Part shown: one piece after another, positions 11,175 through 27,248 of the stretch
Layout of the letters: each line of letters starts with the position of its first letter
How positions within the stretch are numbered: position 1 is the stretch's first letter
Source: Prolixibacteraceae bacterium
Lineage (GTDB): Bacteria; Bacteroidota; Bacteroidia; Bacteroidales; Prolixibacteraceae
Direction of reading: 5' to 3'
Assembly: GCA_023251475.1 (NCBI GenBank)
Contig: JAHEYS010000064.1
Span: 1-35,260, forward strand
Length of the DNA: 35,260 nt
The notes under the pieces: model-generated
What the model saw: the letters and a program-made list of their open reading frames with translations, nothing else
What the model was told of the DNA's origin: nothing
Databases searched by the model: none
Translations under genes and position numbers: made by a program

Positions 11175-11561
11175 CTATTCAACCATATAAATATTTGCAT
11201 TTATTTTAAGCCATTTGTTTTTCCATTGTTTGGAAACAACCCTGCAAAAGAATAGTTTACCGGCATCCATTAATCGCGAACAAACCAGATTCAATGTCCC
11301 GGGAACAAATCCAATCCGGATGTTATCACAATATACGGCAATCGCAAACTCGTCGAATTGATTATCAGGTTCTCTTTTCATGGTAAGAATCTTTTCTGAA
11401 ACGATAAGGTTTTCAATCGTTTCAATTTCTTTACAGAAACTTGTGCCTGCAACGACAATCTCCAGCAAAAAAAATTCCTGGGTAAATGGGGTAATTCCGG
11501 TTTCTGTTTTGCTTAGCATTGATAGTAAGCCCGGAGTTACGGGTAGTATGGACTCATTCAT
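11175..11561 (-). CDS. HIRAN domain-containing protein
   Basis: FLLEIVVAGTSFCKEIETIENLIVSEKILTMKREPDNQFDEFAIAVYCDNIRIGFVPGTLN: HIRAN pattern (vaGt..., L.REPdN.yD..AIaV...iG.vP). ATG at 11561 overlaps the 3' end of the J-domain gene. Confidence 0.85.
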   Translation of the reverse strand: MNESILPVTPGLLSMLSKTETGITPFTQEFFLLEIVVAGTSFCKEIETIENLIVSEKILTMKREPDNQFDEFAIAVYCDNIRIGFVPGTLNLVCSRLMDAGKLFFCRVVSKQWKNKWLKINANIYMVE

Positions 11562-12357
11562 CAATCATAATATTAATAACATTTTTAAATTGGTCGATTT
11601 CTGTTTCCGCGTTTTTGATTTGAGTCCGTAACTCCTCCTGTTTCTGAATGATATATTCTTCATCGTTTATCAAAGCTTTAATCGTAAAGGGAAAGCTTTG
11701 GTTTAACTTGTCGATCTTGTCTTTTAAAGTGAAAATGCTCTTTTCCAGATATTCAATGCGTTCTTTTTTTTCATAGCCGGGTATTGCAGTAAGTTTTTCG
11801 GGTCTTGAATTATCCAGAAACAGGAAAATACTTTGTAAATCGCTTAATCTATTTAAGTCATAGGCAGCCTTTACCCTGATGAACAAATCTTTCTCCTCTT
11901 CAGTTTGATTTGGATTCAGATCGGGATGGAGCCTTTTGCAGAGTACCCTGAAAATTTCTTTTATCTTCAGGCTTTCCTCTGCAGAAACCAAATGCGAGAG
12001 TATCTTGTTTGCCTCATCCACTGCAGCAGATTTTGCTTCAATCCGGGAATAATAATCCTGCAATCTAACATTTAACTGATACTCAATGTTTTTCAAGTCG
12101 GGTTGTACATTTCTATTGATAGCCGCTTGTATCAGATGCATTTTCATTTTAAGACGGGCAGCCTCCGTTTGTTTTTCAAGCAACTCAAGTTGCAGATGGC
12201 CTAATTTTGCCAGATAAAGTGAGGTGAGAATAACAGACTCATTTTCAACCATCTCCTTGTGCAGGGTAAAGAGGTCTAAAAATTCCAGCTGCAATTGCTC
12301 CAATTTTCTGGCTAATTCCTTGTTCTCAACTGTAAATGCCGGCAGGTCGTTGTTCAT
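11554..12357 (-). CDS. J-domain (DnaJ-like) coiled-coil protein
   Basis: 267 aa; central KIKEIFRVLCKRLHPDLNPNQTEEEKDLFIRVKAAYDLNRLSDLQSIF with HPD motif, flanked by coiled-coil-like N- and C-terminal segments. Confidence 0.8.
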   Translation of the reverse strand: MNNDLPAFTVENKELARKLEQLQLEFLDLFTLHKEMVENESVILTSLYLAKLGHLQLELLEKQTEAARLKMKMHLIQAAINRNVQPDLKNIEYQLNVRLQDYYSRIEAKSAAVDEANKILSHLVSAEESLKIKEIFRVLCKRLHPDLNPNQTEEEKDLFIRVKAAYDLNRLSDLQSIFLFLDNSRPEKLTAIPGYEKKERIEYLEKSIFTLKDKIDKLNQSFPFTIKALINDEEYIIQKQEELRTQIKNAETEIDQFKNVINIMIDE

Positions 12358-19751: not shown

Positions 19752-22700
19752 TTACTGTACAAGCGTGAACCTGAAACTAACTCCAAAATTCGAATTGGTA
19801 GTCCGGTAAGCGTTCGAAATAAACGGACTGTTCATAATTCTGTCGTAGAATAGCCTCACAATAAAAACTTCACTCAGGTTATAATCGGCCGAGAACTTAA
19901 CCGAGAACGACTCCTGCCCTGCAGTTGTCTGGTTATTCTCTTCAATCAGCTTCCGAAGTACCGTCTTGTTTTTTCCGTAAGTAAGATCGGCCCTGACATT
20001 TAAATCGTTATTCAGCATTTTTTGCGAACTCTTTGTCTTTACAAACAGTTTCATGTTTTCAAAACGGTAACCGAGCCCCAGACTCGCCTCATTGTTATAA
20101 AGTTCCATCGCCTGGTTATTGGTCAGGCTGAGCATCACATTTCTTGTTTTGCGATACTCGAAACGTGAGGTGACATTATTTAACCAGGTAATGTCAATAT
20201 CAAACAGCGGATTGAAAGTTTCGTTAATATTGATACTGGCGATGTCATATTTTGAAAGGAAATTTTTCTGGGCATCAAGGACATAACTATAGCCATCATC
20301 CTCCGCCTTATAATTAAGATTTGAGATATAGGATCCAATGCTATAAGTTGACCTGTAGTCGTGTATAATGCTCATTGACTTCATGATATCTTTGAGTCCC
20401 TGAATCTTGTTTACCACGCCTGAATACTGAATACGCCAGTTTGGCATCATAAATTTTGCGGATGGGAATGGTGATAGGGGGATAGTTTCAGCGCTTTTAC
20501 CCGAATAGGCAGCGAGGAATGCCGGGATTAAAACCTCCTGGGAAGAGACGCCATAACCGGCAGGAAAGCCGGTATTGGGATCAAAATTTCCCGGGGAATA
20601 TCCATAATCCGCATTTGGAATCCTCGACCGGTCGAGCCGACGTGCAATCACCTCCCGGTTTTGCCTGAACTGATTCCAAACCTTTGAATCCTGCACCTCT
20701 GATTTTCCAAGGCTCTCAAATGAAGAACCGATCGAAATGATAGACATGCTAAAATTCCCGTTAAAGGATTTATTATAACCTTCCCACCCATTCTGGTCAT
20801 TAAAGATCAGAAATTCAGAAGTGTTGGCCGAGAAGTTACGGTTGGCATTGATATCAATTTTCAAATCGGGGATCGGAACCAGTTTAGCCCTCAGATTAAA
20901 CCGTGTATTCTTACTCATCATGTAAGGTTTATTCAGGATTGTATCGGTGGAAACCCAGCCTTTCTGAGCAGCCTGTTGTCCGAATCCGGCACTCTGAACG
21001 CCAAAAATAAAGGGCAAACCGGGGGCCATCAGCCTGTTCCCGTCATCGCTCTGATAATCTGACGACCCAAAAAAGTTGGTTCCGGGTAAATAGCCGTAAA
21101 GACTTGTCCCGCTATTTTCGGTATAGGAGATGTTCACATTATAGAGCATCATCAGAAAACGGGCCAGATACTCATCCAGGTGCAGATTAACCTTTGCAGA
21201 TTTGTCTTTCCCGCCGGTTACTTCAACGATGGCCTTTTTACAGTCCGATTCCGGGGTGAAAAGGATCCGGTTTTCGTTCACCACTTTTACTTTCCCGTTG
21301 ATCACTTTCCCCTTGTCGTCTGTCACCCTGACCGTTACATCTGTGGTGCCCAATTTATGAAAGACCGATTGCGGGATATTCTTCTTCAGTACAGCATTGG
21401 CATCCTTGAATCTTGCGGTTGAGATGCCGTTTATTGGATTAGCCTGCCCTCTTTTGATCTGGGCATCTCTCCTTCCCCGGCTAAATTCACCATACTTCTG
21501 ATTAACTCTTTTCAGGTAGGGAACCCGGTTATAAAGTCTTATAAAATCAGCCTGACCGTTTAACTGAATTGCACTTGAATTATTGATGCTGTTGCCAACA
21601 ACATAATTACTTTTTGTAATCGGGGCCACATCCCAGTCGTATCCTGCCTGATATATAGCTGATGATGAGATCCATTCCAGTAATGGCAATTTATTGATCG
21701 GGATGGTATAGGAAATATTCCAGGTGTGATGGTAATGGGTATTCCGCCCCCCGTCCATGATATTTTGCCAGATCGTATCCCGCCTGGCCTGGTAGCCCGG
21801 CAGATTCTTGTCAAGTGCCCCCAGTGGTTCATCAATTCGGGATGAATTTACGGCAGAAAAATCGATTTTCAGACTTCGTGTAAGATCAAAACGGAAGTCA
21901 TAATACCTGTTCCAGTTAAAATCTTTCAGGTATGTTTTTGGCAGGATAAAACCAGGGTTGGTGATATCGCGGTATTGCACTGAACTACTGGTACGGTTAA
22001 TATCGGAACGGAATGAGATTTGGCTTGGTACAAAATTAAGGTTAAAATCACGCACCAAAGCCAGAGCCGGAGCTTTTAAGAATTTCACATTTTTAAAAGG
22101 GTCTATGGGGACCGGACGACTTACAAAATTGTAATTCAATAAGGCCCGCGTATTTATCGTCTGGTCCAGCGAGGTGGTAATATCGCCGTGTTCATAAAGG
22201 TTATGAGCATAAGTAAGCGAGAAATTCGAAATATCATAAATCTTTGGCGACCCCGTTTTGTTCGGCTTAGTAATCTGTACATTCGTCAGATTAATACTTT
22301 TCCGTGTGGTGAACGTCTGAGAGATCTGTTTAATCGAATCACGGGCATGAGAATTTGCGGCACTGGAAAGTGCGTCAGACAGTTTTACATCTTTGTCCAA
22401 CGGGGAATATTCGGGTGTTGCGACCGATTTGGAGATACCAATATAAAGGGGAATTCTTACCCCTGATTCCTCCTTAAAAAACTTGCCGAGTTCAAGATTA
22501 GTGGAGATATCGTATTCATGAGTGTCATCCAGTGTACGCTGCCCCATCTTTGAATCAATGCTTCCAAATCCTGTCGTTGTAATCCGCCCGGCAATTGAGT
22601 AGCTCCCTAAATCGGCCAGATTACCGGAAACACGTCCAATAGCGGCCCAACCCCCATTTTCCTCGAAATTCGTCAAACGCAGTTCATTGACCCATACCTC

Positions 22701-25700
22701 AACCGATTTAGGGCCAAGGGTTCTGCCCCTCTTATTGCGGATCCCTATCATGCCCACTTCAACCTGCGAGAGGTCAGGGTTTCCCTTTAGTCTGATCCTG
22801 TTCTTATTCCCGTTTACACCCGCATGAATCTTCTCGTATATATCACTGAGCGTGATAAGAGATCCTCCCTTTCGCATCTCTGCATTCCGGTCCAGTTTCA
22901 GTTTCGGGAGTTCATCCAGCGGAATATAGACCCGGTTATTTTCGGGCCAGACGGCCAACCGGTCGCTCTCTTTGTTGCTATCATAATATCCTGGTGTAGT
23001 GAGCTTTAAAGGTATTTCATATTCGTAATAATTATACTGGAAGTCAGATCCGAAACGAACGAACAGGTAGAGATCGTCATCACGCAGGGTGGTCCCCTCC
23101 ATCTCCTCGGCATGGACCTCCAATTTGAGGGTTTTGTACCTGCGCATATCAATCATCATGGTTTTAAATGCTCCCCGGGCATCTCCGGGGTTCAGACCGA
23201 TCGTTCGCAGAACCATCGATTGCTCATTCAATTGGGTTAATTGTGCATTGGAAGGATCGATCACCCTGTCAACACCGGGGGGGACAATATAATTAACCGG
23301 TTTCCGGTTACTGTTCTCCTCCACATTGACTGCAGAAATTTCAAACTGCGTATCCTGTCCCGGAATACTATTATCCTCGGTGAGGTCCTTATCGTACCGT
23401 CTCCAGTTGGTGCGGACAAGGTCCATGGTTGCAAACCGCATTACCACAGGTTTTTGCCATCCTTTCAGGAACATCCTGATAAAACGGATCGATCTGAAAT
23501 CGTTGATGGCGCCATAGACTTTGTCGGGTGAGCTTACAGGTATCCTGAACTGATACCATTTAATTGTATCCTTGTTGCCACTTAGAAGGGTCACCGGTGA
23601 GGTCTTGATATCCGAGATATAGTTTTTACCCAATACCATATTATTGCGGTCGATCCTGAGATGATACTGATAATAGGCTTCATTTTCGTTCAGGGTATTG
23701 TCGTCATTAATATCCTCTACATCAGGGATAGAGGTCGCAGCAGTCGGGTAGCTTTCCGGTGACTGTGAAGAGGTGGGTGAATTACCCTCTGTCCTGGAAT
23801 AGTATTTATACCTATCCAGGAGGTTTTTTTCCTTCTGATCGTAGTCTGTGCCTCGAAAATAGTGATAGTCGTCGCTCGATGGGTCTTTTTCTGCCTGCGA
23901 CAGCGCGGCGGTATCAGCGACCAATTTACCCAGATTACTGATATAGTTGCCAAAAAAACCTTTTTCATCCTTCGAACTTAACCCATCAAGGCCGATATCC
24001 TGATTTACACGGGCAGCAGGTGTGTTATCAAAGGCTTTTACCAGGGATTGCTGTTTTGAAACCCTGCCCCAGGCCGTTTGATCCGTCTCAGCGCTATTGC
24101 CATCTCCAGGCAACCCGTTTTCAAATGATTTTCGTCCATCGCGCAAAATATCCTCGGAAACATTTCCCAGGTTGAAATAGAGATCGCCGCCCGGATTTGG
24201 GTCTTCACTTTTATCCATTGCAAAAGGATCCATCAGCCAGAATTCAATGTATTCGACGTTGGCCGCCTCGAAGTCGCTGGTTTCAATCTTCCGCATGATC
24301 CCTCCCCATCTTGTTTCCGGTGATTTCAGCGCCCCGCTTCGCTCAACACCTGAGGAGTAGGAGGAAGGGGAAACTTCATAGTTGTATGAGCCCCGTTCAG
24401 CAGGAGAATAGGAGAGGTCGAGGGTTGGAATATTTGTGGGCTGGCCTGCAGGTGTTTCCCGATCAGGAAATATCTCATACTGAAATACTTCCCTGACCCG
24501 ATGATCGTCCAGTAAACCCTGTTTGGAAAGATAGGAAGGGGCTGTGCGGCGCTGCATATAAGGATCGATGATGTACCACGAGAGCTGTGACCGGTTATAC
24601 CCGCTGGCAAGGTCATTGATTAAATTTCCTTCCGGAAAGAGTTCATTGTTCTGGGGAGTACTTGCGATTGACCATCCTATGAAAGATTTAAGGTTAATGG
24701 GTGTTTTTGCCCCCTCAAAATCATCAAGGTAAGCTGCCCCTTCTTTGGAAATTACCTTAGAGTGTCCCGGGAATAATCTGGCCCACTCAGCCTCCACTGC
24801 AATCTTGGATTCCACATTTGTCTTAAGAAAAGGGAGGGCATTTACCATCCTGGTAATCATCCCTGAAGTGGTATTATAAGAGCCATTCAATCCGAGCATA
24901 AGGTTTGAAATCGGATCTTCGCCATAATTTACTTTTTGATAGAGCGGTTTCTCGTGGAGATACATCAGTGTTGTTCCGATGTTGAAATTTTTGCTGAATT
25001 CGTAATTAAGATGTGTTCCCAGCATGGTTTTTTGTTGCATACTGAAAAGATCCTGGCTTTCGGTTGAGATTGAAATCGGGGTTCCCGACTCGAGTAAACC
25101 CTGATTAATGATTTTTACCTTACCTTGTGTATAATCGACAATAAAATCAACATCTTCCTGAAGCTGACGCCCGCCTGCCAGCACCTTGACAGAACCACGG
25201 GCAATATTGATCGCATCGAGCGAAATATCGGTGCTTGATGATCCTTTATAACTTCCGGTCAGACGATACTTATTTTTTTCCGCATCCTGAACTGCCGCTG
25301 TTTTTGTCTTATCGTACAGGCTCCGGAAGACATACTTTGATATTGCCCCGGCATCGCCACTGAATTGCCGTTCAAGGTTCGAACCAAAAGGTTCTATAAC
25401 CGGAAATATGATGCGTCCACGCTGGGAATTGACAGTAATCTGCTCCAGAAAATCGAATATCCCGTCAGGATAGGGGTCAAACTGTTTGTTCAGGTGATCA
25501 AGATTCATCACTCCGAGCAGGATCTTTTCCTTGAGTGGGCCATCAGGGAGATAGTTTAAATTTGATCCTGCTGCATCATTTTTATAGAGTACATCCATCT
25601 TAAATTCATCTCCTGAAATTCGAGCACCATTGATATTGTAGATGTTTTTCATCATCAACCTCCAGTTTTTAAATACCGGATTTAAATTTGTCCCTTTCAG

Positions 25701-27248
25701 CAATTTCAGAATCAGTGTACCCGGAGCTGCAATTCCGTCAGTTGAGAACTCTCCGACCTGGAATTTCTCTCCGTTCACGGTGTACTGATATGCAACTGCC
25801 AGAACCTCATCATTATTAACAGATTGATTTAATGATATGTATCCAATTTGCCGGTTAATGGTATATTCTGTTGAATCGAGTAAACGGGCATTCTCAATTT
25901 TTTCATAATCGCGCCCTCCCACAAAATCACGGGCCGATAACGGGCCCAGTGTTGCGGTGAGCCGTGCAATATCACGTATACCCGAATAGGTAGTGGACAT
26001 CTCCTTATAAAGTCCGTTGATATCATTCCATGGATAGGTATTGAACGGAAAAGCGAGCCCGGGGGTATCACCAAAGGCGGGATTAGTCTGATTCTGCATG
26101 TTTATCTTTTTCTCACCAAGATCCATTAAAGCCAGAATATTACGTGATTCCTGAAACCGGCTTGATTTATTGGTCACCCAGACCTCGATCTTGTTGATTG
26201 TAACTGCCGATTTTATAATGGGCAATTCCTGAAGCGCTTTATCATAATTTTCATAAAAATAGTGGCTCAGCAAAAAGTGGCGGTTGGCATCGTAATCGGT
26301 AGCGTTAATTTCAAACTTTGATTTTTCGGCTCCCCCTTCGGTATTGATCACTTTTGTCTCCCCTTTTTGCTGGGAAAAAACTGTTGATACCGATAATTTT
26401 CCGAATTGCAAATCGGTCTTGACTCCAAAAAGATTAGTCCCTCCCCTGATCAGGGTCCCGGTCAGCGGCATTGAAACATTGCCCGCCTCCACATTTTTCA
26501 CGATATCGTCATCGTTACCTGCGTAATCCAGTTTTATCTTGTTCTCAAAATCGAAGGTTGCGTCGGTGTTATAGTTAAACCTCATTTTTAACCGGTCACC
26601 AATCTGGCCGTCGAGGTTGACATTTATCTTCTGGGTGAAATCAAAGGTAGTATTTCTCTGCATCCGAACCGGGATTGAGGGATTTTCGATTCTGTTGCTT
26701 TTGACCCCCAGGCTCATTTCGACATAACCCTGTGGTTTGATATTCACAATATTTGAACCGAAAACCTTATTGAAAGCCTCCCCGCTAATCCGGAACTGGG
26801 GGACAAGCTGCGATTTCTGATCCAGCGAATTCTGCGCCATTTTGTTCCTCCAATAGTGATCGATCGATTCCCGAAGGTCATTTCTGAGAAATTCTTCCCT
26901 GGTGAGGGATAATGGGAGGCGATAATCCATTGTCCCTATTTTTTCGGAGATCAGGTAATCTCCTGAAATTGGGTCATATTCGATGACAGTATGAATATTT
27001 GAAGGTTTTTTCAGATATAAGGCGGATGAGTCGGCTGATCCCGGTTTTGCAAAAATCTTCTGATCTTTAAATGGAAAAGGGAGGGAACCCACGGTATCCC
27101 GACGCACGGAATCCTGACCGGTAAGACTGCTCAGTAATGGATCCTCCATTGACAAATCATTACTGAACCTGGCAATACCATTGCCGGATAAAGCGGAAAT
27201 AATCAAAAGAGTTAAAACCACTATTGTATTTAACGATACCTGTCGCAA
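19752..27248 (-). CDS. sprA: Cell surface protein SprA (type IX secretion translocon / gliding motility)
   Basis: 2498 aa single ORF; NIKPQGYVEMSLGVKSNRIENPSIPVRMQRNTTFDFTQKINVNLDGQIGDRLKMRFNYNT, KVEVWVNELRLTNFEENGGWAA, C-terminal beta-strand-rich; size and motifs typical of SprA/Sov. Confidence 0.95.
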   Translation of the reverse strand: MRQVSLNTIVVLTLLIISALSGNGIARFSNDLSMEDPLLSSLTGQDSVRRDTVGSLPFPFKDQKIFAKPGSADSSALYLKKPSNIHTVIEYDPISGDYLISEKIGTMDYRLPLSLTREEFLRNDLRESIDHYWRNKMAQNSLDQKSQLVPQFRISGEAFNKVFGSNIVNIKPQGYVEMSLGVKSNRIENPSIPVRMQRNTTFDFTQKINVNLDGQIGDRLKMRFNYNTDATFDFENKIKLDYAGNDDDIVKNVEAGNVSMPLTGTLIRGGTNLFGVKTDLQFGKLSVSTVFSQQKGETKVINTEGGAEKSKFEINATDYDANRHFLLSHYFYENYDKALQELPIIKSAVTINKIEVWVTNKSSRFQESRNILALMDLGEKKINMQNQTNPAFGDTPGLAFPFNTYPWNDINGLYKEMSTTYSGIRDIARLTATLGPLSARDFVGGRDYEKIENARLLDSTEYTINRQIGYISLNQSVNNDEVLAVAYQYTVNGEKFQVGEFSTDGIAAPGTLILKLLKGTNLNPVFKNWRLMMKNIYNINGARISGDEFKMDVLYKNDAAGSNLNYLPDGPLKEKILLGVMNLDHLNKQFDPYPDGIFDFLEQITVNSQRGRIIFPVIEPFGSNLERQFSGDAGAISKYVFRSLYDKTKTAAVQDAEKNKYRLTGSYKGSSSTDISLDAINIARGSVKVLAGGRQLQEDVDFIVDYTQGKVKIINQGLLESGTPISISTESQDLFSMQQKTMLGTHLNYEFSKNFNIGTTLMYLHEKPLYQKVNYGEDPISNLMLGLNGSYNTTSGMITRMVNALPFLKTNVESKIAVEAEWARLFPGHSKVISKEGAAYLDDFEGAKTPINLKSFIGWSIASTPQNNELFPEGNLINDLASGYNRSQLSWYIIDPYMQRRTAPSYLSKQGLLDDHRVREVFQYEIFPDRETPAGQPTNIPTLDLSYSPAERGSYNYEVSPSSYSSGVERSGALKSPETRWGGIMRKIETSDFEAANVEYIEFWLMDPFAMDKSEDPNPGGDLYFNLGNVSEDILRDGRKSFENGLPGDGNSAETDQTAWGRVSKQQSLVKAFDNTPAARVNQDIGLDGLSSKDEKGFFGNYISNLGKLVADTAALSQAEKDPSSDDYHYFRGTDYDQKEKNLLDRYKYYSRTEGNSPTSSQSPESYPTAATSIPDVEDINDDNTLNENEAYYQYHLRIDRNNMVLGKNYISDIKTSPVTLLSGNKDTIKWYQFRIPVSSPDKVYGAINDFRSIRFIRMFLKGWQKPVVMRFATMDLVRTNWRRYDKDLTEDNSIPGQDTQFEISAVNVEENSNRKPVNYIVPPGVDRVIDPSNAQLTQLNEQSMVLRTIGLNPGDARGAFKTMMIDMRRYKTLKLEVHAEEMEGTTLRDDDLYLFVRFGSDFQYNYYEYEIPLKLTTPGYYDSNKESDRLAVWPENNRVYIPLDELPKLKLDRNAEMRKGGSLITLSDIYEKIHAGVNGNKNRIRLKGNPDLSQVEVGMIGIRNKRGRTLGPKSVEVWVNELRLTNFEENGGWAAIGRVSGNLADLGSYSIAGRITTTGFGSIDSKMGQRTLDDTHEYDISTNLELGKFFKEESGVRIPLYIGISKSVATPEYSPLDKDVKLSDALSSAANSHARDSIKQISQTFTTRKSINLTNVQITKPNKTGSPKIYDISNFSLTYAHNLYEHGDITTSLDQTINTRALLNYNFVSRPVPIDPFKNVKFLKAPALALVRDFNLNFVPSQISFRSDINRTSSSVQYRDITNPGFILPKTYLKDFNWNRYYDFRFDLTRSLKIDFSAVNSSRIDEPLGALDKNLPGYQARRDTIWQNIMDGGRNTHYHHTWNISYTIPINKLPLLEWISSSAIYQAGYDWDVAPITKSNYVVGNSINNSSAIQLNGQADFIRLYNRVPYLKRVNQKYGEFSRGRRDAQIKRGQANPINGISTARFKDANAVLKKNIPQSVFHKLGTTDVTVRVTDDKGKVINGKVKVVNENRILFTPESDCKKAIVEVTGGKDKSAKVNLHLDEYLARFLMMLYNVNISYTENSGTSLYGYLPGTNFFGSSDYQSDDGNRLMAPGLPFIFGVQSAGFGQQAAQKGWVSTDTILNKPYMMSKNTRFNLRAKLVPIPDLKIDINANRNFSANTSEFLIFNDQNGWEGYNKSFNGNFSMSIISIGSSFESLGKSEVQDSKVWNQFRQNREVIARRLDRSRIPNADYGYSPGNFDPNTGFPAGYGVSSQEVLIPAFLAAYSGKSAETIPLSPFPSAKFMMPNWRIQYSGVVNKIQGLKDIMKSMSIIHDYRSTYSIGSYISNLNYKAEDDGYSYVLDAQKNFLSKYDIASININETFNPLFDIDITWLNNVTSRFEYRKTRNVMLSLTNNQAMELYNNEASLGLGYRFENMKLFVKTKSSQKMLNNDLNVRADLTYGKNKTVLRKLIEENNQTTAGQESFSVKFSADYNLSEVFIVRLFYDRIMNSPFISNAYRTTNSNFGVSFRFTLVQ

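Follow-up and report, generated by a model that had tools for sequence, protein, structure and literature searches.

A 2008 study considered that the eukaryotic HIRAN domain might derive from restriction systems and mobile elements (PMC2292703), and prokaryotic HIRANs have been called experimentally uncharacterised (PMC11090510). Phe142, the duplex-binding residue of HLTF, was reported as missing in most bacterial HIRANs (PMC8262856), and modules composed of HIRAN and HipA are predicted defence systems (PMC8262856; PMC11706625). Among J-proteins, a host DnaJ was described as mediating phage sensing by bNACHT25 (PMC12169576).

Here, we analysed a Prolixibacteraceae locus in which a HIRAN protein is encoded together with a J-protein. 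In the window (the whole stretch of DNA that was analysed, 35,260 nucleotides), two overlapping genes are present on the minus strand: a J-protein gene (12357-11554; 267 amino acids plus the TGA) and a HIRAN gene (11561-11175; 128 amino acids), the ATG of which lies inside the end of the former. The overlap, ATGAATGA (11554-11561), contains the HIRAN ATG and the J-protein TGA, the two frames reading ATT GAT GAA TGA at the end of the J-protein and ATG AAT GAG TCC at the start of HIRAN. Both genes and the 8-nt overlap had been placed at these coordinates by the first-pass annotation, and the ORF listing confirmed them. The genome to which the window belongs contains a single HIRAN and a single J-protein of this type. 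The pair is solitary, with metabolic genes around it, a secreted-protein ORF on the same strand 114 nt upstream and a large convergent gene downstream. Elsewhere in the window, an ORF of 2498 amino acids (19752-27248), located beside ruvA-like and pdxA-like genes, is probably a gliding/secretion protein of the SprA type, as recognised by eye only.

The identity of the two products, proposed earlier by reading the sequence, was examined with Pfam: the HIRAN match is above the curated cut-off (PF08797, 40.6 bits versus 24.7, E 2.3e-10), while the DnaJ match of the J-protein is real but marginal, being 0.4 bits under its cut-off (PF00226, 27.4 bits versus 27.8, E 3.6e-6). The latter match spans positions 15-52 of the 63 of the profile, i.e., only helix II, the HPD motif and helix III, and the Pfam profile did not recognise a canonical helix I, leaving the set of four helices incomplete. 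Considering the ORF, the Pfam match, the AlphaFold2 model and the 31-sequence family A3, the protein is organised as coiled coil, J domain and coiled coil. The model is all-helical (pLDDT 86), with a long N-terminal helix or coiled coil (residues 10-81; 12115-12330, minus strand, as for all features below) containing the conserved Y48, G53 and N81, helices at residues 100-121, 126-143, 153-167 and 171-182, and a C-terminal helical hairpin (residues 194-266; 11560-11778). Helices II-IV, the core of the J domain, correspond to residues 126-182 (11812-11982), with Pfam and PDB matches to residues 126-167, and the model suggests that the preceding helix (residues 100-121) may take the place of helix I or be an atypical version of it. 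When the model was taken as a whole, the fold search returned no meaningful match in the PDB. A J-protein with an extra N-terminal domain of approximately 165 amino acids was also observed (L205:5380-6672).

The HPD motif (residues 144-146; 11920-11928) is invariant in the 31 HIRAN-paired J-proteins of alignment A3 and likewise in 31 of 31 unpaired ones, and the helix II/III signature is completed by K141 and Y166. The use of DnaK would not be universal, since the paired J relative of contig L202 has HPS in place of HPD. Residue 222, the first of the FPF motif (residues 222-224; 11686-11694), is a phenylalanine that marks the paired J-proteins, whereas the unpaired proteins have mostly glutamate or isoleucine, or another residue; N81 and G53 are likewise typical of paired J-proteins. 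This difference between paired and unpaired proteins makes F222, N81 and G53 candidate contacts of HIRAN.

The HIRAN domain proper is located at 11184-11465, and its model (pLDDT 81.5) has the beta-barrel fold, with Foldseek matches to 3k2y (4e-8) and to the DNA-bound HIRAN of HLTF, 6kcs (1.5e-5). Residues R63, N67 and D70 (11352-11375), invariant in the 31 J-paired HIRANs (31/31), compose a presumed pocket for the DNA 3' end: N67 and D70 occupy the places of the second N and the D in the HLTF motif RDPNNPYD, which we take to be contacts of that end. At the position equivalent to H110 of HLTF, paired HIRANs have F or Y. Residues 1-22 (11496-11561; alignment A4), which contain the (T)PGLL motif, are mostly of low confidence in the model. 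This N-terminal segment is present in J-paired HIRANs; because other HIRANs match the family profile only from position 16 or later, we regard it as a candidate J-binding segment. No HipS match was obtained for the N-terminal 32 amino acids, and PADLOC matched the HIRAN protein to PDC-M03B.

To evaluate the pairing, J homologues were sought in genome samples of the family, class, order and phylum, the respective regions were retrieved, and hidden Markov models of the J-protein (A1) and of HIRAN (A2) were run over all loci. With A1, each J-protein gene at or above 147 bits is followed immediately by a HIRAN gene on its own strand, and those at or below 129 bits (L131-L158 and others) have no HIRAN beside them. 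The first-pass annotation would have been abandoned if the two genes were not neighbours in other genomes, and they are neighbours: the 31 loci of close J homologues examined in full are all paired, one further locus (L068) having a broken HIRAN. In the latter, a stop interrupts the HIRAN ORF (L068:888-1274) beside an intact J gene, reflecting a pseudogene or a sequencing error. The overlap is exactly 8 nt in 20 of the 31 aligned pairs, with nearly all others spaced between -29 and +11 nt. Chance is ruled out because 31 loci, with J-protein identities as low as 24-30%, have this gene order and mostly also the 8-nt overlap.

Within 295 genomes of the order, a paired-type J-protein is encoded in nine and the cognate HIRAN in the same nine (hypergeometric 2e-17, computed ignoring relatedness); cognate HIRANs score 157 bits or more, and the other HIRANs in those genomes at most 67. 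The 34 paired J-proteins of the tree form one clade versus the 31 unpaired (support 93/95), and the divergences of the two proteins are correlated (r=0.68, n=13 non-redundant pairs, with 0 of 5000 Mantel permutations as high), as expected for co-inheritance, although this is no proof of contact. The idea of a dedicated module, put forward in the first-pass annotation, is supported. The J-proteins of L131-L158 belong to a wider, HIRAN-less family of coiled-coil J-proteins of approximately 300 amino acids, often encoded in conserved order with housekeeping genes (for a BatA-like VWA protein and an M61-like peptidase).

The distribution of the pair is patchy. The J-protein of the window is 58-61% identical to those of pairs from a different class (L069, L121-L127), but only 26% identical to that of a pair from the same genus (L056, G015), and 16 of 17 other genomes of this genus are devoid of the pair. 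Its flanking genes differ in nearly every lineage, and no third constant gene was found beside it across the loci compared. This combination of patchy distribution, changing neighbours and cross-class identity exceeding that within the genus indicates that the pair moves horizontally as a unit. A phage origin was considered and rejected, since a full J match is absent from 50,697 phage and 72,556 plasmid records. Three distinct paired loci are present in IMG/VR (L202, L203/L204 and L205), in restriction or other defence-like contexts, and their gene content suggests that these contigs are probably from Firmicutes. The Firmicutes-like L202 (2-2343) encodes a SpoVK-like AAA ATPase, the J relative with HPS and HIRAN, with a Vsr nuclease nearby; in L205, the J-protein gene belongs to what looks like an operon with McrBC and an ImmA/IrrE-like peptidase. 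As judged from sequence and its conservation, a coiled-coil J-protein with an intact HPD and a HIRAN protein, encoded in overlapping frames, are kept together. Their genes make up a real and ancient module of two, co-inherited as well as mobile, and spread across Bacteroidota and beyond.

Several copies of the pair close restriction, Hma or CRISPR operons. PADLOC identified, near the pair, restriction-modification (RM) systems of type IIG (L050, L164, L129 and L127), type III (L124) and type I, the last together with Mrr (L203), McrBC (L205), a Vsr nuclease (L202), HmaC (L123), a SNF2 helicase with HEC-01 (L121/L122) and a methyltransferase (L052). Very large enzymes tightly precede it in L164 (a type IIG enzyme of 1231 amino acids), L069 (an HmaC homologue, just upstream) and L121 (a helicase of 945 amino acids), and in L163 (1974-10311) the pair separates cas2, which it follows immediately, from the CRISPR array, in a Cas9-type locus encoding a Cas9-like protein of 1436 amino acids, a 173-amino-acid protein, Cas1 (by PADLOC) and Cas2, Cas9 and Cas2 being named from the sequence; in these four loci the gap to the J gene is below 100 nt. 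Many copies, including that of the window, are located among metabolic genes. In the family of the window, we also observed a HIRAN without J-protein whose neighbours are a helix-turn-helix-type regulator and a type I-like CRISPR-Cas operon (L061:8225-18658; names read from the sequence).

For each locus, we asked whether defence genes could be recognised among the nearest few genes. Such genes are present in 8 of 29 paired loci and in 3 of 28 random loci of the same genomes, a difference that is not significant (p=0.18); this control may be too strict, as its loci come from the starts of contigs, where mobile DNA may be more frequent. Unpaired J loci gave 1 of 29, and against both controls pooled (4/57, part of the control defence calls being our own reading of the sequences) the difference has p=0.018. 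Tallies of PADLOC families (204 around pairs and 9 around unpaired J-proteins) looked decisive as a measure of enrichment, but once random loci from these genomes had yielded 170, per-locus counts were used in their place. The context points to defence, suggestively and not decisively, given that defence genes are also fairly frequent in those random loci.

Our preferred reading, held tentatively, is that the pair constitutes one co-inherited, horizontally moving module, probably acting against foreign DNA, in which a HIRAN/J complex docks on 3' DNA ends and the J-protein stimulates the host DnaK. The two products would form a complex through the PGLL segment of HIRAN and the coiled coils/FPF region of the J-protein, HIRAN would dock this complex on free 3' DNA ends, where DnaK, stimulated by the J domain, would strip or remodel the proteins present; the recruitment of DnaK to DNA ends is inferred from the domains and the conserved residues. 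Less certainly, the useful targets might be the ends of invading or cleaved foreign DNA, and the module might assist restriction or CRISPR systems or be a small defence in its own right. The part of DnaJ in phage sensing by bNACHT25 (PMC12169576) speaks for this reading, and the many copies among metabolic genes and the reported lack of Phe142 in most bacterial HIRANs (PMC8262856) speak against it.

A rival reading, which we consider unlikely, is that of a repair or replication-stress module, recognising 3' ends where host forks are stalled or broken, from which DnaK would clear stuck proteins, with no role in defence. In its favour, the HIRAN of HLTF works at reversed forks, and the copy of the window, like many others, stands alone with metabolic genes around it. 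The genomic context, nevertheless, is not suggestive of repair: in the loci examined, genes for repair or replication do not recur as neighbours, several copies terminate restriction or CRISPR operons, and a patchy, horizontally moving distribution is unusual for core repair. Defence against foreign DNA, although unproven, is favoured over repair.

HIRAN could instead be an adaptor between proteins that does not bind DNA, the pair being a general co-chaperone whose client specificity is unrelated to nucleic acids. The F or Y at the presumed H110 position would agree with this proposal, as would the experimentally uncharacterised status of bacterial HIRANs (PMC11090510), but the invariance of R63, N67 and D70 in 31 of 31 sequences and the fold match to DNA-bound HLTF structures render it rather improbable. 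We give little credit to an assembly chaperone, i.e., a dedicated J-protein and an adaptor that keep large defence enzymes or their DNA complexes folded or soluble; the tight placement of the pair behind the IIG enzyme, the HmaC homologue, the helicase and the Cas operon argues for it, but these partner enzymes are mutually unrelated, many copies have no such partner, and the invariant presumed DNA-end pocket would be left without a reason. Least probable of all is a toxin-antitoxin-like or abortive infection module resembling HipI-HipN, with HIRAN sensing DNA ends and controlling its partner, which the PDC-M03B match and the predicted defence role of HIRAN-HipA clusters (PMC8262856; PMC11706625) would favour, but neither protein nor any constant neighbour has a kinase, nuclease or other toxic domain and the J-protein has no PADLOC match.

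Returning to the preferred reading, the first-pass interpretation, a chaperone and DNA-end-sensing module, is as a whole partly supported. The most novel form of the preferred reading seems to us possible but doubtful: a module for defence or for guarding the genome, not described before, in which HIRAN senses DNA ends and, with its own J-protein, aims Hsp70 at them, as an add-on to restriction/CRISPR loci. If true, no earlier case of a dedicated Hsp70 co-chaperone system targeted to DNA ends would be known from bacteria. The strict and ancient pairing with an Hsp70 co-chaperone gives the bacterial HIRAN a concrete and testable partner, supplies specific residues to mutate (HPD, N67/D70, F222 and PGLL), and possibly connects chaperones with the sensing of DNA ends in the defence of the genome.

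The first reading of the locus had also failed to match it to a described system, and so did we: no system listed in PADLOC has both components, the J-protein being without match and HIRAN matching only the PDC-M03B part, and the J-HIRAN pair is undescribed in the literature searched, which mostly did not reach subscription papers. HipIN/PDC-M03, a HipA-like kinase with a HipS-HIRAN protein, is likewise a two-gene module with HIRAN and a predicted defence system, but the pair has neither the kinase nor the HipS domain that define HipIN, and its partner is a J-protein. bNACHT25 offers a likeness, as a J-protein takes part in anti-phage sensing, but it uses the housekeeping DnaJ of the host and has no HIRAN. 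With PF00226 proteins, the J-protein of the window has in common the HPD, the helix II lysine and the AY motif of helix III, although its J domain lies in the middle of the protein, between coiled coils, with an unrecognisable helix I and a score just under the Pfam cut-off. The unpaired coiled-coil J-proteins from other Bacteroidota classes (L131-L158) share its architecture and HPD and are homologous over most of the length, but form a separate clade, with no HIRAN neighbour, E or I at residue 222 and housekeeping neighbours. The closest solved structure is lp_0118 of Lactobacillus plantarum (PDB 3k2y; E 6e-14 by profile and 4e-8 by fold), a stand-alone bacterial HIRAN that aligns only from profile position 35. 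Unlike human HLTF (PF08797), the paired HIRAN is a protein of its own that lacks helicase and RING domains, has the PGLL segment as a conserved feature and shows no evident duplex-binding Phe; it nevertheless has the fold of the HLTF HIRAN domain (Foldseek 1.5e-5, TM about 0.6) and retains the N and D that belong to the pocket in RDPNNPYD.
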